Shown piece by piece: positions 1,880 through 20,604 of a stretch of 20,767 nucleotides of DNA (position 1 is its first letter; every line of letters begins with the position of its first letter). The translations under genes and the position numbers were made by a program. The notes under the pieces were generated by a model that saw nothing but the letters and a program-made list of their open reading frames with translations, ran no database searches and was not told the origin of the DNA. Location: contig JAFYDO010000206.1 in NCBI GenBank assembly GCA_017544745.1, positions 1-20,767 on the forward strand. Reading direction: 5' to 3'. Source of the DNA: Treponema sp. (lineage in GTDB: Bacteria > Spirochaetota > Spirochaetia > Treponematales > Treponemataceae).

Positions 1880-1906
1880 GATTGTCGCATCTATAGTGCG
1901 ACAATC
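1880..1906. terminator. Strong bidirectional-looking hairpin terminator
   Basis: A 10-bp perfect stem (GATTGTCGCA / TGCGACAATC) with a 7-nt loop is followed on the plus strand by a T-rich run (ctgtttatatttctt). It ends the dnaN unit. On the minus strand it also lies just past the terminal repeat of guide array A, so it could stop the guide RNA transcript as well, though that side lacks a clear T-run. Confidence 0.7.
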
Positions 1907-1932
1907 TGTTTATATTTCTTCTACAACTCGTG

Positions 1933-2033
1933 GCTGTTGTAAGTAATAAACGTTATGCATTCACATCGTTTACGCCCGAGATACGATGCGTCCTAAAGCT
2001 GTATGTTGCTTACAAATGTTATGCATTCACATC
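1933..2033 (-). CRISPR. Mini-CRISPR array A: repeat, 30-nt spacer, degenerate repeat
   Basis: Read on the minus strand, a 36-nt repeat (2033-1998, starting GATGTGAATGCATAAC and ending GCAACATACAGC) is followed by a 30-nt spacer (1997-1968). A second repeat (1967-1933) keeps the first 16 bases exactly and the terminal CAGC but has diverged between, as terminal repeats often do. The full repeat is identical to the first repeat of array C at 12847-12882. It lies directly 3' of its scaffold at 2034-2125, which is the order scaffold, repeat, spacer expected for Cas12f-type guides. Confidence 0.8.
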
Positions 2034-2125
2034 TCATTTGTCGCAACACGCCGAGAATGAACGCTTTCAAGCAACTTCATGAGTGGTCAAGCCCTCACGA
2101 TAAGGCCGTGCAGCCGGCCCGAAAG
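2034..2125 (-). ncRNA. Guide-RNA scaffold (tracr-like) A
   Basis: Minus-strand order: hairpin 1 (2119-2104, GGCCG pairing with CGGCC), hairpin 2 (2099-2078, CGTGAG with CTCATG around an inner GG/CC pair), then anti-repeat GTTGCTT (2075-2069), which pairs with AAGCAAC in the repeat. A second, longer anti-repeat follows at 2048-2035 (TGTTGC and ACAAATG pairing with CATTTGT and GCAACA of the repeat, 6 + 7 bp around a small internal loop). The unit begins about 11 nt after the stop of the radical SAM gene. Bases 1998-2125 differ from 12847-12974 at only two positions. The tracr role is inferred from structure and from the effector gene beside copy C. Confidence 0.75.
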
Positions 2126-2135
2126 AGTGGTGGTC

Positions 2136-3488
2136 TTATATACCATCATTATTATTTTCGGCAGCAATAGACCCAAAGGGTTCTATATAGTCTGCCTTTT
2201 TTTTCAATACGCGGGCAAGGGAAAGGAGCTTTTCCGTCAGTCCTATAAGCTTGGACAGAATAAGGGGGTTATCCTGTACTATAGCTTCAGGAAGAGAAAA
2301 ATCGTCTTCATTATGAGTTTTCAAAAAGCCGAGAAAAGCCCTTGCCTCAGACTCTAACCAGGCTACTTCCCTGAACAAGGGGGCGTGCCAGGTTCCGGTG
2401 CATGCGTTGGCTTGAAAAATATGACTATGGATGTCTTCTTTTAAAATCCATCCGAATTTCATGGCGAACATCCGAAAAAGGAAGATATCCTCATTCACAT
2501 CAGACGAATCTAAATATTCATAATGGTGCAAGAGGCCATTGTGCCGGTTCAACGTATATAGTGCAAGGGTTGCCGAAACAAGGAGGCTTGATTCGCTGGC
2601 AGGAATGGAATAAACATCCTTCAGCGGAAGAATTTTAGGGTATTTTTCTTTTTGGTATAATCTGTCCAGAGTGGCAGAAAAAGCTTTTCTGGCACTGTGT
2701 TTGTAATACACCTTAATACCCATGATCTGATGAAGATAATAGATCCTATTAAAGAACTTGGACCCTTCTGCAGACGTTTTGTAATAATCCTTGATGTGGC
2801 TCATCAATCCTATCATATACAGGTCACAAAAGCCAAGGGTGGACTTGATCATGCGAAAGCTGCTTTCAAAGTCCACAACGGGCTCTATAGAAGCAAAGGT
2901 CTTAAAACCTTCCTCGTGAAGGCGGTGCATCATTTTAATACGGCTTTCGTTTGGACTGGCATTAGGCTCCCAGTCATCACAGCCGGTAAGAGTGAAGCCG
3001 AAAGAAACTAATTGTTTTTTTTCAGGAGATAAAAAACCATACTGCCATACAACATCCTGCGGCCAATCCGTGTTCTTGGTAAGAATGCGGACCGGAACCC
3101 CACGTGAAATGGCATACAGACTGGTCTTACAGGTCAGCCAGGCACACTCGGGGCACATTGGATCTGTGGAGAAAGAATAGAAGATTCCGGTCTGACGAAG
3201 ATAGTCTACTTCCTTCTCCAGCTCCTCAACGAAAGCCATAAATGCATAGTCCTTTGGAGAATAATTACGATATTTCTTACGCCGATACTTGGGGTAGGTA
3301 AACTTGCTTTCCAGTACGGCATGGTCTACGCCCATCACTCTGGCTGTTAAGCCTTTTCGGTTATAGCAATACCTGCATTGGTAAGGGCAGCCACGATAAA
3401 AATTACAACCTACGGCTGCATATTCCCTGGCTGCGCCTTTGGGGGTGTATAGACATACCCCGTCTAATGTTTTGTTCGTTGTAGTCAT
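2136..3488 (-). CDS. Radical SAM protein, SplB-like, with C-terminal extension
   Basis: The CxxxCxxC cluster motif (Cys34, Cys38, Cys41 in GCPYQCRYC) marks a radical S-adenosylmethionine enzyme, where an iron-sulphur cluster cleaves SAM to make a 5'-deoxyadenosyl radical. The core to about residue 270 (FYSFSTDPMCPEC, VRILTKN, FASIEPVVDF) resembles the COG1533/SplB-like group. The substrate cannot be read from sequence. About 150 further residues (from ESSLLVSATLALYTLNRHNG on) form an extension I do not recognise. Its ATG overlaps the stop of the preceding gene as ATGA, so it is the last coupled gene of the train. Guide scaffold A begins about 11 nt after its stop. Confidence 0.8.
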   Translation of the reverse strand: MTTTNKTLDGVCLYTPKGAAREYAAVGCNFYRGCPYQCRYCYNRKGLTARVMGVDHAVLESKFTYPKYRRKKYRNYSPKDYAFMAFVEELEKEVDYLRQTGIFYSFSTDPMCPECAWLTCKTSLYAISRGVPVRILTKNTDWPQDVVWQYGFLSPEKKQLVSFGFTLTGCDDWEPNASPNESRIKMMHRLHEEGFKTFASIEPVVDFESSFRMIKSTLGFCDLYMIGLMSHIKDYYKTSAEGSKFFNRIYYLHQIMGIKVYYKHSARKAFSATLDRLYQKEKYPKILPLKDVYSIPASESSLLVSATLALYTLNRHNGLLHHYEYLDSSDVNEDIFLFRMFAMKFGWILKEDIHSHIFQANACTGTWHAPLFREVAWLESEARAFLGFLKTHNEDDFSLPEAIVQDNPLILSKLIGLTEKLLSLARVLKKKADYIEPFGSIAAENNNDGI

Positions 3489-4012
3489 TTTTGTGTTGGT
3501 TGATTGGTAGTTTCAAGGCCACATGAGACCAAGGTATCATGAATCATACTACGAATATATGGATGTTCGGTGACCAGCGCTCCATGGTTACGGCACCATC
3601 GGAGGAGGGTCTTTTTATCTATTTCAGAATTACCGTGACCAAAGTAAGTGCCAACAATACCCGTTTTAGATTTTGTGTCCTTGGTCAATACACCAATAAC
3701 CTTGCTTTCTCCTCTGGGTATTCCGTAGAGCTTGGCCACATTTCCGGCCTGGACAATATCAAGGACAGATTCATATTTCAGCCCTTGGACAAGACTAAGG
3801 GCTTTCTTATAGGCAAGCCAAGCCTGATGGGTCGAGCCGTTTAAGGTGGAAATAATTGTAGCGAGCTCTCTGTCTGTAGCGTCGTCGTAACTCTTTTCCA
3901 CAACTGGTTCGTTGATGACCCATTCAAGCCAACGGTCAGCCTCGACAGTGCAGAGGTGTGCCGAAATGGCAGCCTTGGCTATTTCTAATCGTATAGTAAT
4001 GTCTTTTTTCAT
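3485..4012 (-). CDS. Hypothetical protein (175 aa)
   Basis: I choose the ATG at 4012 (MKKDITIRLEIAKAAISAHL) because the longer frame to 4093 would run back across the stop and last 70 bases of the upstream gene. The N-terminal half is helical, with a conserved-looking DRWLEWVINEP segment. The middle (GNVAKLYGIPRGESKVIGVLTKD) looks like alternating strand and helix. No catalytic motif or family is recognised. It is translationally coupled to the radical SAM gene through an ATGA overlap, which suggests the two work together. Confidence 0.65.
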   Translation of the reverse strand: MKKDITIRLEIAKAAISAHLCTVEADRWLEWVINEPVVEKSYDDATDRELATIISTLNGSTHQAWLAYKKALSLVQGLKYESVLDIVQAGNVAKLYGIPRGESKVIGVLTKDTKSKTGIVGTYFGHGNSEIDKKTLLRWCRNHGALVTEHPYIRSMIHDTLVSCGLETTNQPTQK

Positions 4013-4022
4013 ATTTGAAAAT

Positions 4023-4502
4023 TTAATAACGAAATTTTGTGAAATGAATGATGGCCATCGGTTTGGAACAAGAACTGCCTCTAAACCAGTCATTCCAATC
4101 TTCTGTGGATAGTCCGTCGTTCATGGCTAAAACGCGGATAGAAGGCTGGCTTGCGTTCTCTATAACAACAACACGCTGGTTGTTTGCGCCAACGACAAAT
4201 CTGAACTGCTGCAGACCTATGCCATCCTCACGGGTTAGGCGAGCAATCTCGTGTTGCGTAGACCCTTTACCATAGGGCTTGCCTATCCATTCACGGACAG
4301 ACAGACACGCCTCACCGGCAGCTATCTTCTTAAAGCGTTTTGCCCAGAAGTCATAGTTCGCTCGGATAGTGTGCAGCTTGTTCCAGTAGTCTGCATTTCC
4401 TGTAATAGCTGCATGTAGTTTGTCGCGGAAAAATGTATGTTTCCCTGCCTTCGGATGGGAAGCCGGAAACTTTTGTGAAAGTGTCAGATGGTACGTTTTC
4501 AT
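4023..4502 (-). CDS. Hypothetical protein, possibly ASCH/PUA-like (159 aa)
   Basis: It starts MKTYHLTLSQKFPASHPKAG and carries HTIRANYDFWAKRF, then LSVREWIGKPY and LTREDGIGLQQFRF. This order (a TIR-containing strand, a Trp-rich helix, a strand ending in W.GKPY) is reminiscent of ASCH/PUA-like RNA-binding folds, and I recall similar proteins in Bacteroidota phages. That fold call is inference. It sits between unknown genes with gaps of about 10 nt on each side, in the same train. Confidence 0.6.
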   Translation of the reverse strand: MKTYHLTLSQKFPASHPKAGKHTFFRDKLHAAITGNADYWNKLHTIRANYDFWAKRFKKIAAGEACLSVREWIGKPYGKGSTQHEIARLTREDGIGLQQFRFVVGANNQRVVVIENASQPSIRVLAMNDGLSTEDWNDWFRGSSCSKPMAIIHFTKFRY

Positions 4503-4514
4503 TTTATAATCAAT

Positions 4515-4853
4515 TTATCGGTGATAACTCAATTTCTCTTCCTGTTCGCACTCCTCTCGATGGCGGCGGACAGTCTCGGAAGCCTCCAGATCCTGGGCTT
4601 CGTCCTGCTCAGAAGACAAAAGTTCAAAAACTTGGGAAAGCAGGGCTGACATGCGCTGACCATGTGCCCCACCCTGCCGGATGCTTTGGACAATAAAGTC
4701 TGCACCGGCATCTATGTCATTCATATTGATGCTGGCACTGCCGATGGTGGCTTCATCGCCACTATTTACAACGGTAAGGAAGTAATCACATCCGCTGTTA
4801 TTGAGCAGCGAAAGAACACTGTCCATAAGGGTGTTCATCTGTTCTGTATTCAT
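4515..4853 (-). CDS. Hypothetical protein (112 aa)
   Basis: The ATG at 4853 overlaps the preceding stop as ATGA. That favours it over an in-frame TTG four codons upstream. The protein starts MNTEQMNTLMDSVLSLLNNS and contains FLTVVNSGDEATIGSASIN, followed by a helix with Gly-His and a strongly charged Glu/Arg tail (ASETVRRHREECEQEE). No family is recognised. Its position suggests a partner of the 354-aa protein just upstream. Confidence 0.6.
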   Translation of the reverse strand: MNTEQMNTLMDSVLSLLNNSGCDYFLTVVNSGDEATIGSASINMNDIDAGADFIVQSIRQGGAHGQRMSALLSQVFELLSSEQDEAQDLEASETVRRHREECEQEEKLSYHR

Positions 4854-5914
4854 AGGCTTGTACAATTAACAATTTTCTTTTGAGGATTGTTGTCGGCTTT
4901 TAAAGCCTTCCCATAGTCCTCTGGCAGACTCCCATAAAGGGCAAGAAACTGCGAGGACAAGTTCTTGGTTTCTGTCGAACCTAACTTTTCCTGTAAGGAA
5001 AGAATAGACTGAGCAAGGCTCTTAACCGCTTTCTCCTCCTTGGTAGGATGAAAAAAAACAGCTTTTCCACCAAAATTTGACGGGTTGGCGGGTAAGGGTG
5101 GAGTTGAAGCGGGTTTGGAGTCTACAAGCCTGTAGTCCAGGGAAAAGTCGGGGAATGTTTCCCTCCAGAGAGGGGCAAGGAAGTCAAGATACTTGCTTGC
5201 TATCTGATCCGACACTTCTTTGGTGACGGCCAGCAGCAAAGAACGCTTGGCAATATCAACGTGGTAAAGGTAGATACTTTCAAAGGCTTTACGCTGTTCC
5301 TCGCTCTGGCTTCTTTGACAGAGATCCTGATGGAACTCAAACCATTTAAAGGAAACTTCATCCCGTAAACGGGACTCTTCCTGTTGGCGGGCTAAAAATT
5401 CTTCCTCCTGGTACTGAAACATTTTTTCCTTGCAGGAGGCAATAAAATCCTTCAAGGAACAGGTAATGACCATAGGGTCAATCTTGCCGTAGAACTTGCC
5501 GAAATCGCCCAGCTTAAACCTGTAGAAAAACAACATAAAAACAGAGAACTTCATTCCTTTATACTCTTGGGCAACAATTTGGGCAAGTTCTTTTGTTTGT
5601 GGATCAGAAAGATTCTTTGTGCCAGCAAACTTGTTAAGATTGGCAATATGTAGGGTCAGCCAGGAAGCGGAAGAGTTAGGGCCGTAAGTAAAATCAAGGA
5701 TTTCAAGCGTCGAATAATCTTCCATGATGGCATGCCGTTCAAAACGGGCCATTGCTGCCTGGGCTGCCGGACTGAACTCCTGATTAAAGGCTTCAAGCGA
5801 CGGGTAATGTTTTCGAAGGTTCTGGATTTTCTTCTCGAAGCTCTTTGTAAATGTTGATTGCGCCGCGGATGATGTCTTCGTCAGTCCGATAGCCGTTGTT
5901 GTTTTCTTTTCCAT
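4850..5914 (-). CDS. Hypothetical Bacteroidota mobile-element protein (354 aa)
   Basis: The central region (about residues 105-160) has a distinctive pattern, FKLGDFGKFYGKIDPMVITC, that I recall from uncharacterised proteins on Bacteroidota plasmids and conjugative elements. Around it are long charged helices (EEEFLARQQEESRLRDE) and a Pro-rich linker (SKPASTPPLPANPSN) before a C-terminal helical part. Its first 122 nt overlap the end of the DUF4373-like gene in another frame, so a shorter internal start is possible, but none is obviously better. Its stop overlaps the next start as ATGA. The association with the replication protein upstream suggests a replication role; function is unknown. Confidence 0.65.
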   Translation of the reverse strand: MEKKTTTAIGLTKTSSAAQSTFTKSFEKKIQNLRKHYPSLEAFNQEFSPAAQAAMARFERHAIMEDYSTLEILDFTYGPNSSASWLTLHIANLNKFAGTKNLSDPQTKELAQIVAQEYKGMKFSVFMLFFYRFKLGDFGKFYGKIDPMVITCSLKDFIASCKEKMFQYQEEEFLARQQEESRLRDEVSFKWFEFHQDLCQRSQSEEQRKAFESIYLYHVDIAKRSLLLAVTKEVSDQIASKYLDFLAPLWRETFPDFSLDYRLVDSKPASTPPLPANPSNFGGKAVFFHPTKEEKAVKSLAQSILSLQEKLGSTETKNLSSQFLALYGSLPEDYGKALKADNNPQKKIVNCTSL

Positions 5915-6764
5915 TATTTTTGGTTTTGATAAATTTTTCTTCCTGAATAATCATCCACTTTGCGAAATGATTCTTTGCATCACCAAGGTTGATGTGTTGT
6001 TTTGAGGAAATTTTCACCTCCTGAGCCCATCGCAAAAGAAAACCTTCCAGAAACTCTTCGTTTCCTTGAAGGAAGACGAAACGCTCAAAGACCGTATTTT
6101 TCCAAGCATTCTGATTCAACAACTCCGAGACCTCTTCATCCACGTCACTAAAGACTTTTTCGTCAGATTGAGAAACAGAAATTCCTGTTGTCTTTCGCGT
6201 GCGCAGGCGATGATAATCGCCCGAAGGGAGATTATCTTTTCTTTTCTTTTCTTTTCTTTGTGTACTTTTTGCGGAATTTATTAGGGTTTCTTCCGAAATA
6301 ACTGCCGTTTCTTCCGAAGTAATAAAGGTTTTTGTTTCAGAAACTTCCTTTTTATCAGATGTAACCGAATTTTGAGACGGTTCCTGAAGCAAATACGGAA
6401 TATCGTTGGAAATCTTACGCTTGGCAACGGAACAGATGTTAAAATATCGCTCTTGGATGCCATAAGATGTTAGAACCTTATGGCTGTCAAACATGGTCTG
6501 GTCAAACAGACCTATACTAAGAGCATAGTTGATAACATCCAATACAGTATCTTCCTGTAAATTAGACACTTCCGATATAACAAAGGGAAGATCATCGTCC
6601 CATTCAAGGTAATAGCCGACGGCATAAATCTGACATAGAAGAATATCATAGACTGATACAGCCTGAATACCTTTATGGCGTATCATTTTCCTTATCTTCA
6701 GGTCTTGATAGAAGTTCACGTTTTTCGTGAAATATTCAAGACCTTGCTTCCTGGGTCGTGCCAT
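5793..6764 (-). CDS. DUF4373-type replication-associated protein (323 aa)
   Basis: The N-terminus (ARPRKQGLEYFTKNVNFYQD, then KIRKMIRHKGIQAVSVYDIL and GYYLEWDDDLPF) is the hallmark of the DUF4373/Lin1244-like domain, a winged-helix-like module of phage and plasmid replication or helicase-loading proteins. A Ser/Thr/Glu linker (about residues 135-175, repeats of SEET) joins it to a C-terminal helical part (FLLRWAQEVKISSKQ, HFAKWMIIQEEKF) like the second conserved block in such proteins. It overlaps the upstream paralogue by 29 nt and the downstream gene by 122 nt. The domain call is fairly secure, the exact role inferred. Confidence 0.75.
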   Translation of the reverse strand: MARPRKQGLEYFTKNVNFYQDLKIRKMIRHKGIQAVSVYDILLCQIYAVGYYLEWDDDLPFVISEVSNLQEDTVLDVINYALSIGLFDQTMFDSHKVLTSYGIQERYFNICSVAKRKISNDIPYLLQEPSQNSVTSDKKEVSETKTFITSEETAVISEETLINSAKSTQRKEKKRKDNLPSGDYHRLRTRKTTGISVSQSDEKVFSDVDEEVSELLNQNAWKNTVFERFVFLQGNEEFLEGFLLRWAQEVKISSKQHINLGDAKNHFAKWMIIQEEKFIKTKNNGKENNNGYRTDEDIIRGAINIYKELREENPEPSKTLPVA

Positions 6765-7236
6765 AATGGTATTTTTTCTGAGTTAATATACTGCTATTGT
6801 GCGTTTTCTCTGAATAAACATTAGTTTCTTCCGAATTAACTGCCGTTTTCTCCGAAGTAATTTGTTTTTTACGCGATATTGTGACAGAATAAAGCAAGGA
6901 AGAACTGTGTTTTGTTCCTTCTGAAAGAACGTTCCAAGAAGGAAAAACCAGTAAATGGTACGACGGATGCTTTATCTTCCTTAGAAGAAGTTGGTTGACC
7001 ATGCGGTGAACAACCATATCAACAAGGCGCTCTGACACGTTGTTGCGCAAGGCAATACGTTCCCTGAACGTCTTACAATAAACACATTCTGCACTTGAGG
7101 AAGCAACCTCAAGCAGAATGTCCAAAAGCAGTTTAGATCCCTTGAAGCCAAACTCCTTTTCAATGGCTTTTACAGACGGAGAATCGAAAAAACCACAGGA
7201 AAGACTTAATGCTTCGACTTTTTGAGTACTGTTCAT
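6736..7236 (-). CDS. DUF4373-like short paralogue (166 aa)
   Basis: The sequence VEALSLSCGFFDSPSVKAIE, then FGFKGSKLLLDILLEVASSS and VSERLVDMVVHRMVNQLLL, follows the same strand/helix plan as the DUF4373 N-terminal domain of the next gene but lacks its C-terminal half. Its tail carries the same kind of linker (ITSEKTAVNSEETNVYSEKT). It overlaps the next gene by 29 nt. The pair looks like a duplicated winged-helix replication-protein module. No catalytic residues are visible. Confidence 0.6.
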   Translation of the reverse strand: MNSTQKVEALSLSCGFFDSPSVKAIEKEFGFKGSKLLLDILLEVASSSAECVYCKTFRERIALRNNVSERLVDMVVHRMVNQLLLRKIKHPSYHLLVFPSWNVLSEGTKHSSSLLYSVTISRKKQITSEKTAVNSEETNVYSEKTHNSSILTQKKYHYGTTQEARS

Positions 7237-7265
7237 AATAATAAAATTTTTAATTGGAAACTTCG

Positions 7266-7481
7266 TCAGGGCCGGTCATCCATAATACCGGAAACCAAAA
7301 GGTGCATACCCACTTCCTCGGCAGCTATAGGTGATAGACCGGCAAGACGCTGACGCTCGATCTCTTCCTCAGCTTCCCTGGCTCGCGTTTCAATGAAACC
7401 TGCGTCAGAGGCAAGCGGGGATTTAATCTCGCGGAGAATAACCTTTAGGTACATCTCATAATAAGAGAAATCTTTATTCAT
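7266..7481 (-). CDS. DUF1896-like small protein (71 aa)
   Basis: The pattern SYYEMYL, LASDAGFIETRA, EIERQRLAGLSPIAAEEVGM, LLVSGI matches the small all-helical DUF1896 family found on Bacteroidota plasmids and conjugative transposons. Its function is not known. It is the first gene after guide array B, and its start lies 56 nt past the last recognisable repeat. Confidence 0.65.
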   Translation of the reverse strand: MNKDFSYYEMYLKVILREIKSPLASDAGFIETRAREAEEEIERQRLAGLSPIAAEEVGMHLLVSGIMDDRP

Positions 7482-7537
7482 ATATTTACATATTTATAGT
7501 AATACTTTATTACGTATTTTCTTATAATATTTTTATA

Positions 7538-7671
7538 TCATTTGGAGTGTATCTACACCTCCTGAAGGAAGTTTGTATCCAGAGGAAAAGCTGAATATTA
7601 CTCTCATTTGTAGTGTATCTACACCATTATGCTCAAAAACATTACAATATATCGAGCTGTATATTACTCTC
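7538..7671 (-). CRISPR. Mini-CRISPR array B: half repeat, spacer, repeat, spacer, degenerate repeat
   Basis: On the minus strand a 16-nt repeat 3' half (7671-7656, GAGAGTAATATACAGC) is followed by a 30-nt spacer (7655-7626) and a full 36-nt repeat (7625-7590, starting GGTGTAGATACACTAC and ending GTAATATTCAGC). A second 30-nt spacer follows (7589-7560), then a terminal repeat with only its first 22 nt conserved (7559-7538). Repeat and spacer sizes equal those of arrays A and C, but the repeat sequence is a different family. The 5' half carries a GTGTAGATACAC palindrome. Confidence 0.82.
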
Positions 7672-7731
7672 TTGGAGCAACTTCGCGAGTGGTGAAACCC
7701 TCGCGTTAAGGCCGTGCAGCCGGCCCGAAAT
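7672..7731 (-). ncRNA. Guide-RNA scaffold B, fused directly to a half repeat
   Basis: It has the same two-hairpin plan as scaffolds A and C: hairpin 1 (7725-7710, GGCCG with CGGCC) and hairpin 2 (7705-7684, CGCGAG with CTCGCG, closing GG/CC around TGAAA). The anti-repeat GTTGCTC (7681-7675) pairs with GAGTAAT of the fused repeat across a very short loop. The long second anti-repeat of A and C is absent. The scaffold starts about 9 nt after the stop of the gene ending at 7740. This looks like a natural single-guide RNA. Confidence 0.75.
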
Positions 7732-7739
7732 ATAATTTT

Positions 7740-8387
7740 TTATTTAAATGCATCTGACTTGTCGTTAATGCAATGCTCGGTGTCTGGGTCGTCCTTAATT
7801 CCAAAACCGCCCTCTTTGACAGAGGCACAATGAGAACACAGGCTTGGCAACACCCAAGAACAATTACCGTAATGTGGGTGATAGCATGGATTATAATAAG
7901 TGCAGCCACATACACGGCAGACACCGGGAACAGGCTCCTCTAAGGCGGCAAAAAGATCTTCCTCCTTGTGGAAATAGCCGTCGAAGGTCAGATACATCAG
8001 TTCAGGTTTCGCCTTGGAGCTGTAATCCATAACATATACACGCTTTCCGTCACCGGCCATATAACCGGCTTCTACATGGGCGCTCCTTCCGCAAGGAAGA
8101 CACAGAACACAAGTGTCTGCGTCGCTCATGGCATTAAAATGCTCTTTAAAACGCTCGTTGGCGGTCTGGTCTGCCAACATACTGTCAAAGTCAGAAGGAC
8201 GTAGGTTCCCGGTAAGGTACGCCTCCTTCAACTCTCTGCTTTTGGCGACGCTGTCCCAGACGTTCTTGTCGTTACGACCGAACGGGTGTCTGAAGTCATA
8301 GACTTTGTGACCTCGCTTACGGAGCTCTTTAACCAAGGTGGGCTGACTCCCGTTCTTCCAGCTGCTTGCAATATAAATTCTTGACAT
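7740..8387 (-). CDS. Nucleoside deoxyribosyltransferase-like protein with C-terminal Cys cluster
   Basis: Residues 1-150 follow the nucleoside 2-deoxyribosyltransferase-like Rossmann pattern: MSRIYIASSW with GHKVYDFRHP, then SDADTCVLCLPCGRSAHVEAG, where Glu106 sits at the usual catalytic glutamate position, and PELMYLTFDGYF. Residues 157-187 add seven cysteines (CRVCGC, NPCYH, GNCSW, SLCSHC), a probable zinc ribbon of a type seen in phage proteins. Family members exchange bases on deoxynucleosides or act in nucleotide signalling, and which applies here is unclear. The start at 8387 lies 4 nt after the probable original stop of the frameshifted gene upstream. Guide scaffold B follows its stop. 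Confidence 0.7.
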   Translation of the reverse strand: MSRIYIASSWKNGSQPTLVKELRKRGHKVYDFRHPFGRNDKNVWDSVAKSRELKEAYLTGNLRPSDFDSMLADQTANERFKEHFNAMSDADTCVLCLPCGRSAHVEAGYMAGDGKRVYVMDYSSKAKPELMYLTFDGYFHKEEDLFAALEEPVPGVCRVCGCTYYNPCYHPHYGNCSWVLPSLCSHCASVKEGGFGIKDDPDTEHCINDKSDAFK

Positions 8388-8391
8388 AATA

Positions 8392-8491
8392 TTATTTTTT
8401 TTGTTTTTTTATTATAACATGATAACCATTATCGTCGACGGTAAATCCAAAAACAGAAAAAGAATTTAGTTCCCAAAAAAGGTCTTTTTCA
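8392..8491 (-). pseudogene. Frame-shifted C-terminal coding of the upstream gene
   Basis: Removing a single A from the AAAA run near 8507 lets the upstream frame read on as KYCPINDEKDLFWELNSFSV and through FGFTVDDNGYHVIIKK to a TAA at 8392. That stop lies 4 nt before the next gene's ATG, the tight spacing typical of this train. The total of 421 nt from 8812 is one base more than a whole number of codons. A real one-base insertion, a sequencing error or a programmed shift would all look like this. Confidence 0.5.
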
Positions 8492-8812
8492 TCATTTATA
8501 GGACAATATTTTAAGTATAAAATTTACTTCTTCTTTCGTGGCAGGACGAATGTTTGAATCAATTGGACAACCAAGAAAGTCACAAGTCCATTGACGATTA
8601 TAAACTCCATTTTCATCAGGCTCTCCCATTGATCCATCACGCATACAATTTATTGCTACCTTAAAAAACCCATTAGGATAACAAAGAGCAATAGCGCGAA
8701 GTGTTATCTCGTTATTACGAACAAAATAATTGTTGTCCCATGACATAAAAGTCAATACCTCAAGTTGTGGTAATGAGTCTATTTCCTTAATGTTAACATT
8801 TTTATTTTCCAT
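8492..8812 (-). CDS. Hypothetical protein (106 aa as read), probably truncated by frameshift
   Basis: It starts MENKNVNIKEIDSLPQLEVL and contains ITLRAIALCYPNGFFKVAIN, then WTCDFLGCPIDSNIRPATKE. The frame ends abruptly at ILKILSYK, while good coding sequence continues in another frame to 8392. The intact protein would be about 139 aa. I do not recognise a family. Strand and helix alternation suggests a small globular domain. Its base composition is more AT-rich than the methyltransferase gene upstream. Confidence 0.6.
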   Translation of the reverse strand: MENKNVNIKEIDSLPQLEVLTFMSWDNNYFVRNNEITLRAIALCYPNGFFKVAINCMRDGSMGEPDENGVYNRQWTCDFLGCPIDSNIRPATKEEVNFILKILSYK

Positions 8813-8824
8813 AAATAATTCGTC

Positions 8825-9643
8825 TTAAAATAATCTATTTTCTATCTTATAATTATATACCAGCACTTCCTGTTTCCTTTTTACCCCCCCCAATATATGA
8901 TTTGCAACCCTGAGAGGCATATCCCTGACGGTGTAATGCCATCCTTGGCGTTGCACATATTCTTCCAGCATATCGCTGGAAAAGTTACAGAGGATGAATT
9001 TTCCCCTGACGGAGGAAAGCGTTTCAAGAAGTTCCTTAAAATGCTCGAAGGTAAAACCGCTATAATGTTTCTGAACACAACCGGGATAAGGAGGGTCAAG
9101 GAAAAAGAAAGTGTCTTCGGTATCTCGCTGACGGATAACTTTAATAGCATCGCGGCAGCTGATCTGCACGAGCTTCAGGCGTTCATGCACCTTATAGGTA
9201 AACTGATTGCGGTAGTTTTCCATCACCACACCAGAGTGACTTCCGCTGGTGCCGTTGTCCCACTTCCAGCCTCCTTGCGGAGAGCCGCCATAACCCATAT
9301 TGCACAACAACCATACTGACCAGGCCAATTCAACGCTGTCTCTTGCAGTCTTGGGGTTGCGCCAGACTTTGTCTGCTCTCAGAAATTCCCTCTCTGCATT
9401 CAGGGTGTTCTGAATTTTCTTCTGAAGCCGGTTAAACAGCGTTTCGTCCTGGCAGACATCATAAAAGGTGACAATCCTATCATCTATATCATTTATAACC
9501 TCGCAAGGACTTTTTCCCTTGGCAAAGAATACAGCACCACCACCAAAGTACGGCTCACAATAAACCCTGTGAGTCGGCATCATGGCAATAATCGTGTTCG
9601 CCAACAGCTGTTTGCCTCCGTAATAGGTGATGGGTGTACGCAT
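8825..9643 (-). CDS. D12-class adenine-N6 DNA methyltransferase
   Basis: It methylates adenine in DNA using SAM. The N-terminus TPITYYGGKQ and the FGGGAVFF segment form the SAM-binding motif of the D12/Dam class, and DPPYPG at about residues 183-188 is the catalytic DPPY motif. The 272-aa length is normal for Dam-like enzymes. No restriction partner is next to it, so it is probably an orphan enzyme used for protection from host restriction or for regulation. The target site is unknown. About 50 nt of a diverged second copy of its 3' end survive at 17615-17664. The gene overlaps nothing and starts 4 nt after the stop of the sigma4/alpha-CTD gene. Confidence 0.88.
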   Translation of the reverse strand: MRTPITYYGGKQLLANTIIAMMPTHRVYCEPYFGGGAVFFAKGKSPCEVINDIDDRIVTFYDVCQDETLFNRLQKKIQNTLNAEREFLRADKVWRNPKTARDSVELAWSVWLLCNMGYGGSPQGGWKWDNGTSGSHSGVVMENYRNQFTYKVHERLKLVQISCRDAIKVIRQRDTEDTFFFLDPPYPGCVQKHYSGFTFEHFKELLETLSSVRGKFILCNFSSDMLEEYVQRQGWHYTVRDMPLRVANHILGGVKRKQEVLVYNYKIENRLF

Positions 9644-9647
9644 GAGC

Positions 9648-10571
9648 TTATGTGTTTAAATGTGAAATCCTTATATTTTCCTGGACAATGGCAGTAACAT
9701 CCATGCCAAAATGAAGACCGAAGCTGTCCAGAAAATCAATAGTCTCAGTAAGACAACGTTTACCAAAGTTCCGGAACCTTAAAAGAACCCGTTGATCCAG
9801 CTGAACAAGGTCTCCGACGGTATTAACGTCAGCAGACTTCAATGAATTAAGGGTGCGAATGGAAAGATCCGTGTCAGCAAGACGGAAAGAAAACAAATCC
9901 ATCAGCTGGGCCAGTCCGTCCTTTCCCTGATAGCGGGAGGGGACAGATTTCTTGATATAGTCGGCTCTACCGGCTTGGGCTTCTGCCAGCTCCCCTACCC
10001 TTTTACTTAACAGAATAGACTGATTTCTTAATGCAAGGTTCTCCTTTCGTAGCTCTAAACACTCCTTACGGAGATCGCTGTAGTTTTTCATTGCCGACAT
10101 CTTCCGGAAGGCCTTATGAATAATCAAAAGAATCCGTTCGCGGGAAAGGCCGAATTTCTGACTTTCCTGACCAATCGTGTTTCCGTTATTGATGTCGGAA
10201 AGAATTTCGTCTTCGCGTTCAGACAGGACATCTGAACCGGCTACAGAAAGAATGGCCGAAAAGACAGACGCAATAAACCATTGAGGCATGGAAGTTGGGA
10301 CAACAGCCTCTGCCTTGGAAATTTCTTCAATGCGTCTGTCAAGGGCGACCTCTCTCTTCTCGGCCTCCTGCAGCTTGGCAGCAAGGCGCTTGTCCGTCTG
10401 CTCCAGCTGGAGGAAGGTGTCAAAATGACTGACAAGGGTCTCTTTGTCGACGTATTGGCGACGTTTTAACGTGTGGGCTGTAATAAGACCAGACGCTATC
10501 CAGTTGGAAATGGTCTGTTCTTCCACACCCAGCAGACGGGCTGCTTCCTGTCTGGAAATCAATCGTGCCAT
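9648..10571 (-). CDS. Composite HTH / sigma-region-4-like / alpha-CTD-like protein
   Basis: Residues 1-50 (ISRQEAARLLGVEEQTISNW) are a MerR/excisionase-type helix-turn-helix. Residues about 55-90 are a charged coiled coil. Residues about 115-160 (LSEREDEILSDI, FGLSRERILLIIHKAFRKM) match sigma-70 region 4, the part that reads the -35 element. After another coiled coil, residues about 232-292 (LSIRTLNSLKSADVNTVGDL, LLRFRNFGKRCLTETIDFL, FGLHFGMDV) closely follow the helix-hairpin-helix C-terminal domain of RNA polymerase alpha. The protein therefore combines DNA-binding and polymerase-mimic parts and very likely acts on transcription. It sits between two DNA methyltransferase genes, 2.4 kb downstream of the Cas12f-like gene on the same strand. 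Confidence 0.75.
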   Translation of the reverse strand: MARLISRQEAARLLGVEEQTISNWIASGLITAHTLKRRQYVDKETLVSHFDTFLQLEQTDKRLAAKLQEAEKREVALDRRIEEISKAEAVVPTSMPQWFIASVFSAILSVAGSDVLSEREDEILSDINNGNTIGQESQKFGLSRERILLIIHKAFRKMSAMKNYSDLRKECLELRKENLALRNQSILLSKRVGELAEAQAGRADYIKKSVPSRYQGKDGLAQLMDLFSFRLADTDLSIRTLNSLKSADVNTVGDLVQLDQRVLLRFRNFGKRCLTETIDFLDSFGLHFGMDVTAIVQENIRISHLNT

Positions 10572-10587
10572 GTTCTATATAATTAAA

Positions 10588-12243
10588 TTAAGCTGTTTTC
10601 TGATTCAGCGCTTCTAATGAGGCGGCAAGAGACTCGCAAAGAACACGCGACATATTAACCTCTACGGCGTTGCCGATGTACTTTTTCTGCTCCGACTGGT
10701 TGCCGATTAGAACGTAATCTTCAGGGAAGCCCATGATGCGTTTCAGCTCACGGATATTCAACATGCGCATCTTGATGTCTATAATACCATATAGAGACAT
10801 AAACTCCTTAATCTTACGAGTCATAGGAGAATCATTGTTATAAACGGCAATGCCGATTTCACCCTGCTCTGTGTAAATAAGATAAGGGGGCATCTTGTCC
10901 ATCCTCGCTATGAGGGTGAAACATGGCTTTTCGATGCTGCCTCCGGCACTTTCAAACTGAGGATTCATCAGATAGCGGTCAGCAGAAACAAGTTTCTGTT
11001 TAGGTATGCACAGCACAGCGGGGTTTGCCGTTTCTATTGACCCCACTTGTCCGCCGCCGCTGTATTCATTTGCAAGAAAATGGCTTGCCTGGATCCGGAC
11101 CTTATCCAAGGGTACATCCGGCATGGGCTCGTTTAGGTTAAGATTCACCAGACCAAACCGGTCTTTGGTAAGAACGGTAGGCATTGGCTTCTGAATGTCT
11201 GCGTTGAAGCCGTTGCCGTAATAGGCGGTAATAAACGCCTCATGGGGAATCGTTGTTATAGTTCCGGCAGGCAAGTCTATGCTTTGGTTCTTTGACATGG
11301 GATGTCCGCTGAACTGCTTGGAAATAAACTGCGCCTTAGCCTTGGCAAAGCGGTTGCCGCAGGTAAGCACACCACAAGGTTCATCAATACCCTTGACAGT
11401 GTCCTGTGGACGGACACTGTTGTAGCGGACAAGGAAATTGTCCTTTCCTCCTGCCACAAACTTCACAAGACCGGCATAAATGCGCTCCAGTGTTTTTTCT
11501 ACCAATGGCTTTCTCCTGCAGAAAATGGACTCACCTTCGTCGTTGAGGTCCAAGACCTCACGGACGGGCTTCCATTTCTTGTACGCCGTGGAAGCCGAAT
11601 CCTCGTCACCAAATTTGGCATAGGAGGGTTTGGGAAAGGTAATGGGCAACCCGTGCTTTGCAAACTGCCCAAAGAAGCGCTTGCGGCTTGTATAAGCCCC
11701 AAAGTCGGCAGCGTTAAGGATCCGGTAATCAAAGTCATAGCCGTAACAGCATACATTTCTCACCCAGTTCAGATAACAGCGCCCTTTGTCTTTACTGATT
11801 GGCTTGCCAAAGGCGTCCAAGTCGCCCCAACACATAAATTCCTCAACATTCTCAATCTGAATGAAGTGGGGGTTGATGGCTTCAATGTATCTGAAGAGGT
11901 GCTCGGCCAGGGTGCGGCTATCAGCATCTCTGGGCTGGCCTCCCTTGGCCTTACTGAAATTCGTACACTCCAAGCTGGCCCACAGAACAACACGCGCTTG
12001 CGGGTACTTTGTTCTTTCTTTTTGAAGGTGGGCAACGAGGGGTCGCAGATCCAAGGTTCTAATGTCTTCTGTAAAATGTAACGTGTCCGGATGATTTGCC
12101 TGATGGGAAGCAATGGCGTTGGCATCGTGGTTGACACATGCCACAACCTTGGCACAAGGCTGCCCAAACAGCCGTGCCTTGCTGACTCCCGTAGAGGTGC
12201 CACCGGCACCGCAGAACAAATCAATATATAATAGGCTTATCAT
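10588..12243 (-). CDS. DNA (cytosine-5) methyltransferase
   Basis: It transfers a methyl group from SAM to cytosine C5 in DNA. Motif I is ISLLYIDLFCGAGGTSTG. The catalytic loop is SLECTNFSKAKGG, with ECTNFS in place of the usual PCQxFS, a variant I recall in phage-type enzymes. Motif VI is IENVEEF, and the C-terminal motifs are LNIRELKRIMGFPEDY and YIGNAVEV. The long middle contains several imperfect repeats of a P..T(I/L)T type pattern. I take the ATG at 12243 because the longer frame to 12318 runs into the upstream gene and only adds sequence before motif I. The protein is 551 aa and probably orphan, as no endonuclease is visible. Confidence 0.9.
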   Translation of the reverse strand: MISLLYIDLFCGAGGTSTGVSKARLFGQPCAKVVACVNHDANAIASHQANHPDTLHFTEDIRTLDLRPLVAHLQKERTKYPQARVVLWASLECTNFSKAKGGQPRDADSRTLAEHLFRYIEAINPHFIQIENVEEFMCWGDLDAFGKPISKDKGRCYLNWVRNVCCYGYDFDYRILNAADFGAYTSRKRFFGQFAKHGLPITFPKPSYAKFGDEDSASTAYKKWKPVREVLDLNDEGESIFCRRKPLVEKTLERIYAGLVKFVAGGKDNFLVRYNSVRPQDTVKGIDEPCGVLTCGNRFAKAKAQFISKQFSGHPMSKNQSIDLPAGTITTIPHEAFITAYYGNGFNADIQKPMPTVLTKDRFGLVNLNLNEPMPDVPLDKVRIQASHFLANEYSGGGQVGSIETANPAVLCIPKQKLVSADRYLMNPQFESAGGSIEKPCFTLIARMDKMPPYLIYTEQGEIGIAVYNNDSPMTRKIKEFMSLYGIIDIKMRMLNIRELKRIMGFPEDYVLIGNQSEQKKYIGNAVEVNMSRVLCESLAASLEALNQKTA

Positions 12244-12268
12244 AGTTGTTATAATCAGATAATGAAAT

Positions 12269-12721
12269 CTATTTATTGTCTTCTGTTTCTTCAGGAACTT
12301 CATACTTGATAATATCAAGAATATTGGTTTCCTTCAGCTGTGCCTGCTCCCAATCGCCAAGGGTACCCTTCATTCCTTCCTGAATGGCAGAACGAGCATC
12401 GTCAAAGTCCTTGGCAAGAACCATGACAAGCTGGGTGATTTTCTTTTCCTTTCCTTTCTTCTCGTCTACAGTTATAAACGACAACTTGGCCGAATACCAA
12501 CGGTCAGCAGAAGAGTCAGAACTGTAGAACAGCTCGCTGACTTTCAGGCGACGAATGGCACAGATGTCATATTCGCCTGAGACGTAATCAGTAATATACT
12601 CGGCAGCACGTGTCTCTGCCTCGGCGAAGCTAACAGCTTCAACCAGGTATTTCTCGGTGACGTTCTTGATAAGACCGTCTTCCATGGTCTTATCAAACTT
12701 AATTGAAACTTCGTAATGCAT
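12269..12721 (-). CDS. DUF4494-like protein (150 aa)
   Basis: The opening HYEVSIKFDKTMEDGLIKNV, the YLVEAVSFAEAETRAAEYI helix, YDICAIRRLKVSELF, WYSAKLSFITVDEKKGKEKK and the C-terminal FDDARSAIQEGMKGTLGDWE closely follow the DUF4494 pattern of Bacteroidota mobile elements. Its role is not known. It is the first gene after guide array C, and its start lies 60 nt past the last clear repeat. Confidence 0.75.
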   Translation of the reverse strand: MHYEVSIKFDKTMEDGLIKNVTEKYLVEAVSFAEAETRAAEYITDYVSGEYDICAIRRLKVSELFYSSDSSADRWYSAKLSFITVDEKKGKEKKITQLVMVLAKDFDDARSAIQEGMKGTLGDWEQAQLKETNILDIIKYEVPEETEDNK

Positions 12722-12750
12722 CTTATCTATTTTTAATTATTTTTTTGGAC

Positions 12751-12882
12751 GTATTCGCCAAGATGAATAGAAATAGCCACGCTACATGTTGCTTACAAAT
12801 GTTATGCATTCGCATCATCCCCAAAAAGAGAAGACCGATTCTCAGTGCTGTATGTTGCTTACAAATGTTATGCATTCACATC
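12751..12882 (-). CRISPR. Mini-CRISPR array C, next to the Cas12f-like gene
   Basis: On the minus strand a 36-nt repeat (12882-12847), a 30-nt spacer (12846-12817) and a second 36-nt repeat (12816-12781) are clear. The second repeat differs at three positions (GATGC for GATGT, and ATGTAGC for ATACAGC). Bases 12780-12751 are a possible second spacer, but no third repeat follows, so the true end may be 12781. The first repeat is identical to that of array A, and the spacers differ. No cas1 or cas2 is present in the window. Confidence 0.82.
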
Positions 12883-12974
12883 TCATTTGTCGCAACACGC
12901 CGAGAATGAACGCTTTCAAGCAACTTCATGAGTGGTCAAGCCCTCACGATATGGCCGTACAGCCGGCCCGAAAG
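12883..12974 (-). ncRNA. Guide-RNA scaffold (tracr-like) C
   Basis: It begins about 8 nt after the stop of the Cas12f-like gene and reads on the same strand. Hairpin 1 is 12968-12953 (GGCCG with CGGCC), hairpin 2 is 12948-12927 (CGTGAG with CTCATG and an inner GG/CC). Anti-repeat GTTGCTT is at 12924-12918, and the longer anti-repeat TGTTGCGACAAATG is at 12897-12884, pairing with the repeat just downstream by 6 + 7 bp. Effector, then scaffold, then array is the locus order known for Cas12f systems. Confidence 0.78.
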
Positions 12975-12981
12975 ATTTTTT

Positions 12982-14232
12982 TTATTCATCATCTTTTTCT
13001 TTGTCGGAAACAACTTTGATGCCGGCCAACTTTGCCTTATACTCAATCAGGGTCTTAAAGCCATAATAAGACCAGTTGCGAAGCATAAAAAAATCTCCTT
13101 TCTGGTTTTCTTCCTTAGCCTGGATCTCGCGGGCTTCCTGGTTGATTAGCATGATGGTGCTGCATTTGTTCTTTATAGCCCTATCTACCAAAGCTCTGGA
13201 ATATATATGGAGCTTGGTGTGGACATAGTTTTTCTCCAGTTCTGTAAAACGTTCAATGGCTTGTAGCTTGCGCTTGCGGCCTTTACCTCCATTTGTCCAA
13301 CGGGAATTGAGCTGACAGCGACGTAAGGCGGCCTGGATCTGAAGGCGACGATACAAAAATTCCTCGGCAGTTCCAATGCTCCCCCACTTAATTCCGCTGT
13401 CATAGATGTTCTTGGCGCAAACCTCGTAGTTATATTCTACGGGGTGTGCAAGGCCCAAATAACAGTACATGGTTTTCTTGGAATCAAGCTTAACTTCTTG
13501 CTTGGGAATATCAACACAAAGCAAAAGGAAAAGCTTCTGTTTTTTCCTACCAGTTGTACGATCTGCCACCTTCTGGAAGGCAATCGAAGAAGAACAAAGC
13601 TTGTATTCGCCATTAATACAGCGGTCAATTATAGAAGCGTTGTTGCTTCTATCCTGACCTAACATACAGGCAAAAGGTATTCCAAACAGGGTAAAATAAT
13701 ACCGCTTTACCTTCTTTGTCTTTCCTGTTTTCTCGTTCAGCGTTTCTTCTTCAACGCTGTGAATATTGGCAAGAGCAATAGCAGAGAAGGGTATAGGAAT
13801 ATTGTTCTTGTAACTTCGTAAAGTACTTTCACCTTTGTTAAGGTCAGGCAGAGTTTCCTTAAATGTCTTGGACACAGCCTGGTTCAGACAACTGTAAATA
13901 TCGGCAGGAACATTACCCTTTAACATTGAACTGATAAGACGATACGTGGTATTCTGCTCGCTCATACCAGGCCCTTTTTCAAGGGTGTCCGAAACGTTAT
14001 ATTTTACTTTCTGCTTACCAGTCTTTTCGTCGGTAACCATAAAGCGCTCGCGAACATCTTCCTGCAGATACATAAAATCCCTTACGTTCTGCTGCACGAA
14101 CTTGTGCGAGACAATAAGGTTGGCGGCCTTACGAATCGCATCACGCCATTCAAAAATGGTGTGCATATAGTTGCTCTTCATTTCTTTGTCCTCTTCGTGG
14201 ACATAGATTTCGATTTTTCTTGTAATAACCAC
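12982..14232 (-). CDS. Compact Cas12f/TnpB-like protein, predicted nuclease-dead
   Basis: The protein is 416 aa, shorter than nuclease-active Cas12f (about 400-700) when its missing end is counted. The C-terminal third carries TnpB/Cas12f signatures: FLYRRLQIQAALRRCQ and GGKGRKRKLQAIERF (bridge-helix-like, about 292-328), HIYSRALVDRAIKNK (342-356), and LRNWSYYGFKTLIEYKAKLAG (384-404). The RuvC-I position, where GIDLG is expected, reads YCYLGLAH, with Tyr258 in place of the aspartate. The RuvC-II strand reads TIMLINQEARE without the expected glutamate. The frame ends at 416, before the zinc finger and RuvC-III aspartate. It should therefore bind RNA and DNA without cleaving. Known relatives of this kind are TnpB-derived repressors (TldR) and dead Cas12f regulators reported in Bacteroidota. 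Scaffold C and array C follow its stop. Confidence 0.75.
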   Translation of the reverse strand: MVITRKIEIYVHEEDKEMKSNYMHTIFEWRDAIRKAANLIVSHKFVQQNVRDFMYLQEDVRERFMVTDEKTGKQKVKYNVSDTLEKGPGMSEQNTTYRLISSMLKGNVPADIYSCLNQAVSKTFKETLPDLNKGESTLRSYKNNIPIPFSAIALANIHSVEEETLNEKTGKTKKVKRYYFTLFGIPFACMLGQDRSNNASIIDRCINGEYKLCSSSIAFQKVADRTTGRKKQKLFLLLCVDIPKQEVKLDSKKTMYCYLGLAHPVEYNYEVCAKNIYDSGIKWGSIGTAEEFLYRRLQIQAALRRCQLNSRWTNGGKGRKRKLQAIERFTELEKNYVHTKLHIYSRALVDRAIKNKCSTIMLINQEAREIQAKEENQKGDFFMLRNWSYYGFKTLIEYKAKLAGIKVVSDKEKDDE

Positions 14233-17614: not shown

Positions 17615-17664
17615 GTTAAAATAGTTTATTCTCTAAGTTATAATTATATACCAGCACTTCCTGT
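17615..17664 (-). pseudogene. Remnant of a second D12 methyltransferase 3' end
   Basis: Read on the minus strand it codes QEVLVYNYNLENKLF and stop, against QEVLVYNYKIENRLF at the end of the gene at 8825-9643. Nucleotide identity is high across about 50 bases and stops at the fragment's edge. The differences are scattered, so it is an old copy. It lies inside the 185-nt stretch without intact genes. Confidence 0.6.
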
Positions 17665-17726
17665 TAAATAATAGAAGGCGGTTGGGTTCAGGAATGTCGG
17701 ATGTTTGTTTAGCCAAGTGCTGGTAT
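17648..17726. repeat. 12-bp perfect inverted repeat around 55 nt
   Basis: ATACCAGCACTT (17648-17659) is repeated inverted as AAGTGCTGGTAT (17715-17726). The left arm is part of the methyltransferase remnant, so the right arm may come from an inverted copying event, or the two may form a long stem in the transcript leading to the membrane protein gene. Confidence 0.5.
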
Positions 17727-20028: not shown

Positions 20029-20604
20029 TTGCAAATTGGATTCAGCTTCGTGGACAGCACGCCGCTGCGTGTGTGCAAAAACCAGCACATTCACATTCAC
20101 AAGGTATTCAAAGGCATCGCCCAGCGCGGGAAATGCTCAATGGGATGGTTTTTCGGCTTCAAGCTCCATCTTATCTGCAACGAGATGGGCGAATTGCTCA
20201 ACTTCATGATTACGCCTGGGGATGTGGATGACAGAAAGCCGCTGGAGTACAAGGCATTTACGGATTTCCTATACGGCAAGCTGGTCGGCGACAAAGGATA
20301 CATTAGCAAGGAGCTCTTCAGGAAACTCTTTGTGGACGGGATACAGCTCATCACAAAGCTAAAGAGCAATATGAAAGGTGCTCTGATGAGTGTCTCGGAC
20401 AAGGTGCTGCTGCGCAAGAGAGCGATTATTGAAAGTGTCAACGACGAACTCAATAACATCGCACAGATTGAACACTCAAGACACAGGTCAGTCTGCAACT
20501 TCGCTGCCAACCTGTTGGGAGCTGTTGCTGCCTATTGCTACTTCCCTAAGAAACCATCCATACAGGTGGTCAGAGTGTTTGATAATCAGCTTTCTCTCTT
20601 ATGA
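20029..20604 (+). pseudogene. IS982-type transposase, 5'-truncated
   Basis: The sequence FSFVDSTPLRVCKNQHIHIH, KVFKGIAQRGKCSMGWFFGF, then GDVDDRKPL, LVGDKGYISKELF, DGIQLITKLKSNMK, LLRKRAIIESVNDELNNIAQ is the catalytic part of an IS982-family DDE transposase, with Asp in FVDST and GDKGY and Glu in the IESVNDEL helix. About 130 N-terminal residues are missing, and a stop codon (20026-20028) sits just before the frame, so it should be inactive. No terminal inverted repeats are recognised. It lies outside the proposed element edge. Confidence 0.8.

Follow-up and report, generated by a model that had tools for sequence, protein, structure and literature searches.

Positions 1 to 20,767 of contig JAFYDO010000206.1 (Treponema sp., assembly GCA_017544745.1) form the stretch of DNA analysed here, called the window (20,767 nucleotides, nt). 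It encodes a 416-amino-acid (aa) protein that is, judged from its sequence, a Cas12f homologue of the type V-F/V-U3 family without its nuclease residues. Three units of RNA scaffold and guides share the strand (-) of this effector gene. We propose that the window system is an RNA-guided DNA binder that does not cut and would instead silence the genes of rival mobile elements (probability about 0.6). Silencing of competitors is predicted because the guides of related systems match rival mobile islands.

The effector and its guide units

Residues 4-408 of the effector have PDB entry 9n9c ('Nuclease-deactivated Cas12f') as top match (E value 8.9e-63), and Cas12f nucleases rank after it. An AlphaFold2 model was made from a 42-sequence alignment (mean predicted local distance difference test 80.5, predicted template modelling score 0.65). 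In the fold comparison, 9n9m and 9n9c rank first and Cas12f nucleases next, which agrees with the Cas12f/TnpB-type fold expected in the initial annotation of this DNA. The PADLOC models Cas12u3 and Cas12f recognize residues 1-408 at about 1e-50 (4.1e-51 and 8.6e-51, respectively).

The catalytic residues were checked in an alignment of 146 rows. It consists of the window protein, 25 locus proteins and 120 listed homologues, the best 120 of 1,315 proteins with E ≤1e-3 (5,301 candidates). The RuvC-I Asp and the RuvC-II Glu are both replaced in the window effector and in 120/120 listed homologues, as expected if the effector is dead, which the initial annotation had stated. D survives in the Asp column of 9 of the 146 rows and E in the Glu column of 6; these rows are without exception distant loci (L014, L022, L110-L112 and L114-L117). 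A CxxC motif (zinc ribbon) was found in the last 110 residues of 0/120 listed homologues. The full-length distant relatives L022, L110, L111, L112 and L114 retain D, E, the zinc-ribbon cysteines and the final Asp motif. With 1,315 proteins at this threshold, the predicted dead branch is large. Distant relatives are also encoded by 101 records of a plasmid collection (87 from Enterococcus), all below 60% identity and those listed at 24-28%. The Enterococcus and Bacillus plasmid proteins among them, like the PADLOC Cas12u3/type V-F models, belong to the same sequence family as the window effector.

The effector gene and the predicted parts of the units are the following.

12982-14232, minus strand: putative nuclease-dead Cas12f effector, 416 aa, GTG start (sequence, fold, lost catalytic residues)
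12927-12968, minus strand: unit 3 scaffold, stem 1 at 12953-12968 and stem 2 at 12927-12948 (covariation over 42 scaffolds)
12918-12924, minus strand: unit 3 anti-repeat GTTGCTT, with its partner AAGCAAC in the repeat (anti-repeat/repeat pairing)
12847-12882, minus strand: unit 3 repeat 1, 36 nt (repeat comparison)
12817-12846, minus strand: unit 3 guide 1, 30 nt (position; no target found)
12781-12816, minus strand: unit 3 repeat 2, 92% identical to repeat 1 (repeat comparison)
12751-12780, minus strand: possible unit 3 guide 2, uncertain (position only)
7684-7725, minus strand: unit 2 scaffold, stem 1 at 7710-7725 and stem 2 at 7684-7705 (covariation)
7656-7681, minus strand: unit 2 anti-repeat (7675-7681), short loop and half repeat (7656-7671) (fold, position)
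7626-7655, minus strand: unit 2 guide 1, 30 nt (position)
7590-7625, minus strand: unit 2 full repeat, divergent relative to units 1 and 3 (repeat comparison)
7560-7589, minus strand: unit 2 guide 2, 30 nt (position; a single 19-20 nt viral match judged chance)
7524-7559, minus strand: unit 2 last repeat, degenerate (position)
2078-2119, minus strand: unit 1 scaffold, stem 1 at 2104-2119 and stem 2 at 2078-2099 (covariation)
2069-2075, minus strand: unit 1 anti-repeat GTTGCTT (anti-repeat/repeat pairing)
1998-2033, minus strand: unit 1 repeat 1, identical to the unit 3 repeat (repeat comparison)
1968-1997, minus strand: unit 1 guide 1, 30 nt (position; no target found)
1932-1967, minus strand: unit 1 repeat 2, degenerate, 69% (repeat comparison)
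1902-1931, minus strand: possible unit 1 guide 2, uncertain (position only)

Each unit follows a gene: the effector for unit 3, a 215-aa gene (7740-8387) for unit 2 and a 450-aa gene (2136-3488) for unit 1. The scaffold models start 11, 12 and 14 nt past a stop codon. The initial annotation had described a scaffold, an anti-repeat, 36-nt repeats and 30-nt spacers behind the Cas12f-like gene, with two further units after gene stops. This arrangement was confirmed, now with covariation support. The repeats at 1998-2033 and 12847-12882 are identical. Compared with them, identity is 92% at 12781-12816, 69% at 1932-1967 and 64% at 7590-7625; the last repeats are degenerate in units 1 and 2. Unit 2 is a predicted compact single-guide form, with the half repeat joined to the scaffold. 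Given this fusion, unit 2 has two guides (7626-7655 and 7560-7589).

A profile built from the three window units scores them at 5.8e-43, 1.4e-42 and 2.6e-35, which is circular, but it additionally detects units in homologous loci. For the covariation analysis we chose, from the detected scaffolds of the window and of 17 further loci, a set of 42. They have a two-stem scaffold in common, with 97.6% of the pair cells paired; shuffling lowers this to 72.7%, and sliding the partners to 50.9% or less. Double changes in pair cells numbered 106, compared with 34.1 ± 4.4 in shuffles, and RNAalifold gave 15 pairs, 13 of them with a double change.

The 7-nt anti-repeat lies 3' of stem 2 and pairs with the 7 nt ahead of the ATACAGC-type handle of the repeat. 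This was tested in the 37 of 42 units with a handle, chosen by a rule blind to pairing. The mean pairing was 5.78/7, against 4.49 ± 0.19 with repeats redistributed among units; 0/2000 shuffles reached it. Within loci, an anti-repeat forms more Watson-Crick pairs with its own repeat (4.74, 34 comparisons) than with a foreign one (3.68, 78 comparisons). So, the units look self-contained, though some exchange between them may occur. These tests confirm the units as predicted RNAs, whose scaffold and anti-repeat pairings are above chance. Rfam gave no match.

Distribution and carriers of the family

The scaffold profile was run on 31 sequences, many of them contig fragments (L006 and L007 are near duplicates; L022 and L113 are one contig). 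It found 58 units in 24 sequences. At least two units are present in 17 of these 24, with a maximum of six in L018. All sit on the effector strand except one (G007:C2:83222). One unit begins 8-18 nt past the effector stop in 16 of 19 dead-effector sequences (L007 and L113 left out). The window is no single odd locus; it belongs to a family present in tailed phages and in at least one conjugative element.

The architecture varies. The spacing is shorter or irregular in some relatives, and guides are absent or decayed in the units of L002 and G010. L018:3360-5880 presents six scaffold units in succession, with changing repeats and some guides of only ~14-20 nt. The arrays of L011 and G004 have several guides in common, with different order and neighbours, which hints at reshuffling without cas1. 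Likewise, the last guide ahead of the effector is the same in L008 (1260) and L009 (735) except for two bases, a hint that guides drift along with a target. In 17 records, some of which are fragmentary, no contig with an effector showed a Cas1 (the profile search did not include the window), which agrees with the absence of adaptation genes noted initially. A scan of IMG/VR with the single protein returned no relative; an alignment-based search returned 16. A scan with the scaffold core gave 38 contigs (L023-L060).

Terminase and portal matches in G004, a portal in G001 and a tail protein in G005 place tailed phages among the carriers. The closest relative of the window effector (L019, 72% identity) lies on contig G009:C5. 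This contig carries transfer genes: TraG (7.8e-120), TraM, DUF4138, which we take to be TraN, and a Mob_Pre relaxase match. Its TraG also resembles a PHROG terminase weakly (1.1e-10). Between 95,896 and 126,286, 13 of its open reading frames (ORFs) match the window, and the order primase, effector, replication gene is shared. Given this colinearity, the window most likely derives from a conjugative element, in line with the mobile-element setting proposed initially, although the window itself showed no transfer gene. The host of this element would probably be a bacterium of the Bacteroidales type. A phage origin was first assumed and was dropped once L019/G009:C5 proved conjugative.

Other features were observed on these contigs. 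The window has a 50-nt direct repeat (90% identical) at 8825-8874 and 17616-17665, adjoining gene ends. At its right end (20029-20604, plus strand) lies a transposase-like ORF fragment, presumably of insertion sequence (IS) type. G009:C5:40417-72381 (minus strand, loci L071-L072) is an uninterrupted ORF of 10,654 codons, whose last 3,999 residues match MutS_I, ArdcN and DUF6926.

Targets of the relatives' guides

We extracted 152 guide candidates. E values of the target searches are per genome, and only the top candidates of each genome were scored. On the carriers' own contigs, excluding the regions of the units, the best matches were two sites that differed from the guide at two of the first 17 nt, compared with 1.0 in shuffles. 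Self-regulation was rejected, as none of the 152 candidates had a target on its own contig (contigs are partly fragments).

Searching 13 guides in six metagenome-assembled genomes with effector contigs gave a match of the L021 guide to G011:C15:11618-11647 (29/30). The site is at the start of a DUF6291 gene, downstream of a tyrosine integrase. When 71 guides were run against 399 genomes, with scores for two candidates in each, 10 genomes had matches at E ≤0.02, one being the carrier itself; the same number of guides gave no match in the INPHARED phages. Twenty guides (G005, G009 and G004) were compared with 150 genomes of the G250 genus. Matches at E ≤0.05 appeared in 26 genomes, not all of them true targets (guides C and D), and six matches were ≤1e-3. 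The same guides reversed matched one genome (E 0.011). A further 41 guides, without a reversed control, matched 13 genomes, with eight matches ≤1e-3.

Convincing targets were obtained for 7 of 61 guides, from five relatives, and all lie in integrated islands. Five match at 27-30/30 and two are gapped. They are the L021 guide, A (29/30) and B (27/30) of L013/G005, C (29/30) of L019/G009, F (30/30) and H of L010, and G of L004; G and H require a one-base gap. Guides B, F and G sit in a gene we take to be DUF3127-like, for which Pfam returned no name (that of G was recognized by eye). Guide A is inside an adjacent 130-165-aa gene and guide H is 28-58 nt ahead of it, beside a BT4734-like/DUF3987 primase. 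So, one DUF3127-like/primase module and its immediate surroundings are the target of five guides, which come from three carriers. Guide C lies on a TAACTTTG box, which we assume to be a promoter, 94-124 nt ahead of a DUF3853 gene; DUF3987 and an integrase are close by. Of the weaker matches of guide C, the four inspected have nothing but a TAACTTTGCAC box in common and their genes are unrelated, so only G533 was counted. The triplets upstream of the best sites are TCA (L021), CCA/TCA (A), mostly TCA with CAG in two (B), TTG (C), TTA (F), GCC/TCC (G) and TCG (H).

Two further matches were set aside or added nothing. Guide D (G004, GTGTATGCC...) has six ~20-nt matches in the 150 genomes. The flanks of four were read, and the one site placed among its genes is intergenic; guide D is unexplained and was not counted. 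In IMG/VR, guide A found its own carrier contig alone.

Defence-family genes lie within 8 kb of the site in 5 of 8 target regions: type IIG restriction-modification (R-M) in L177 and L178, type III R-M in L182, Cas9 in L183 and AbiE in L180. The Cas9 gene (L183:1607-5266) is close to the targeted DUF3127-like/primase module. In the other regions, L179 has a WYL regulator, neither of the two L181 proteins tested gave a match, and the L124 match is outside the island. Because we chose the tested proteins and no random control was made, that targeted islands often stand beside defence genes is only a lead.

Proposed silencing, its alternatives and known systems

The dead Cas12f and an RNA of scaffold, repeat and 30-nt guide are likely to assemble into one DNA-binding complex. 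The units would be transcribed together with the preceding gene, and their RNAs released as natural single-guide RNAs or short arrays. The initial annotation had one effector using guides from three places. Several units per effector are indeed found, and the shared scaffold suggests that any of the three could load it. Once bound, the complex would block transcription of the target module. A more specific proposal, to which we give slightly less than even odds, is that a single dead Cas12f, carried by Bacteroidales conjugative elements and by tailed phages, uses two to six dispersed, gene-trailing units of single-guide RNA plus array, each with its own repeat/anti-repeat. These would switch off replication modules of integrated islands, many near anti-phage or anti-plasmid defences, and so clear the carrier's own entry. 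This would be a distinct, binding-only class of weapon.

Several observations weigh against silencing of rivals. No convincing target was found for 54 of the 61 guides from relatives, and the reversed control covers the 20-guide set alone. The sites of A and F are at gene ends, where blocking is less obviously useful. The window's six guides had no target in 348 genomes (one weak match) or in 180 genomes (none), so the function of the window rests on its relatives. In IMG/VR, the 18-nt starts of unit 1 guide 1 and unit 3 guide 1 found 0 contigs each; the 19-nt start of unit 2 guide 2 found two contigs of the same sequence, 20/30 matching, judged chance. Finally, a protein encoded near the effector leaves an activator role possible:

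9648-10571, minus strand: possible partner, a 307-aa protein with HTH_17, a sigma-70 region 4-like stretch and an RNA polymerase alpha C-terminal domain (Pfam)

The E values are 3.3e-6, 1.1e-4 (below cut-off) and 7.3e-15, respectively, and the combination in one protein is an unusual fusion. In the main rival to silencing, the dead Cas12f would recruit RNA polymerase, perhaps through this protein, and activate guide-matched genes. The gene order around it is the same in the window and L019, and the dCas12f chain of 9n9c is also present in entry 9n9q, which contains RNA polymerase alpha. We take 9n9c, 9n9m and 9n9q to be a dCas12f-sigmaE RNA-guided transcription system. However, full-length homologues of the 307-aa protein occur in 2 of 19 records and a partial one in a third (several records are fragmentary), so an obligate sigma/alpha partner was rejected and no constant link to a sigma-type gene was seen, with this protein as the only sigma type searched. 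No sigma-E-type gene was seen adjoining the effector in the window. Four of the seven target sites (A, B, F and G) are inside genes and a fifth (L021) is at a gene start; C and H are upstream of genes. We consider activation improbable. The 9n9c protein is likewise a dead, shortened Cas12f without the zinc-ribbon end (~33% identical to the window effector), whereas the guides of our relatives target mobile islands, often within genes.

A little less probable still is a regulator like TldR, with fixed guides tuning chromosomal host promoters or the carrier's own to its benefit. Phage-borne dead TnpB relatives with a guide RNA do so for flagellin, according to the consulted part of PMC13418256. 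Guide C overlies a promoter-like box, and some guides recur, unchanged or drifted, in related carriers (L008/L009, L011/G004). Nevertheless, guides differ widely between carriers, own-contig targets are absent and the convincing targets lie in mobile islands. The window family also differs from TldR in its repeat arrays, its several units per effector and its island targets. TldR proteins descend from IS605/IS607 TnpB and have a guide to a fixed host gene; the targets located here are islands and not one host gene. The initial annotation pointed to dead relatives that act as RNA-guided regulators. The guides of our relatives match rival islands and not their own contigs, which speaks for interference with other mobile elements over gene regulation. 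Quite unlikely is that the units are inactive leftovers or RNA decoys against host Cas12f: degenerate last repeats in the window, absent or decayed guides in L002 and G010 and the repeat-based RNA anti-CRISPRs of phages (PMC10651486, seen in part) speak for it, but the effector is conserved across a large family with loss always at the same residues, RNA covariation is strong and guides match other elements nearly exactly.

The roles assigned to dead Cas12 proteins are interference with plasmids for Cas12m, homing of transposons for Cas12k, and gene regulation for TldR and for dCas12f with RNA polymerase. The predicted silencing by the window family resembles the first: a dead effector on a mobile element, with guides to other mobile elements. 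From the portions consulted, dead Cas12m (type V-M) on plasmids stops transcription of rivals (PMC11656645, PMC12669027; blocking also in PMC11013384). Cas12m is another Cas12 branch, with a far lower fold match (8hhm) to the window effector, and dispersed scaffold units, which the window family has, are not mentioned in those portions of PMC11656645 and PMC12669027. In virus mini-CRISPR arrays, and in the CRISPR with which phage ICP1 attacks the PLE island, a mobile element likewise aims guides at a rival (PMC6858448, PMC8263062, in the parts seen). These depend on CRISPR systems that cut, whether the host's or the phage's, in contrast to a dead Cas12f with its own units. Regular repeats and spacers (36 and 30 nt) are common to the window and CRISPR-Cas adaptive systems. 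No title or abstract was found describing a dead Cas12f with dispersed scaffold-guide units (bioRxiv preprints not covered).

If our reading is true, the dead Cas12f branch would be a competition tool common to phages and conjugative elements, with its guides in gene tails. It would provide a programmable DNA binder of very small size that comes in several natural single-guide forms, and the guide-target pairs given here are concrete enough for testing. How guides are renewed without adaptation genes would become a direct question. For large elements, such a system may be a possible route past defence-carrying islands.

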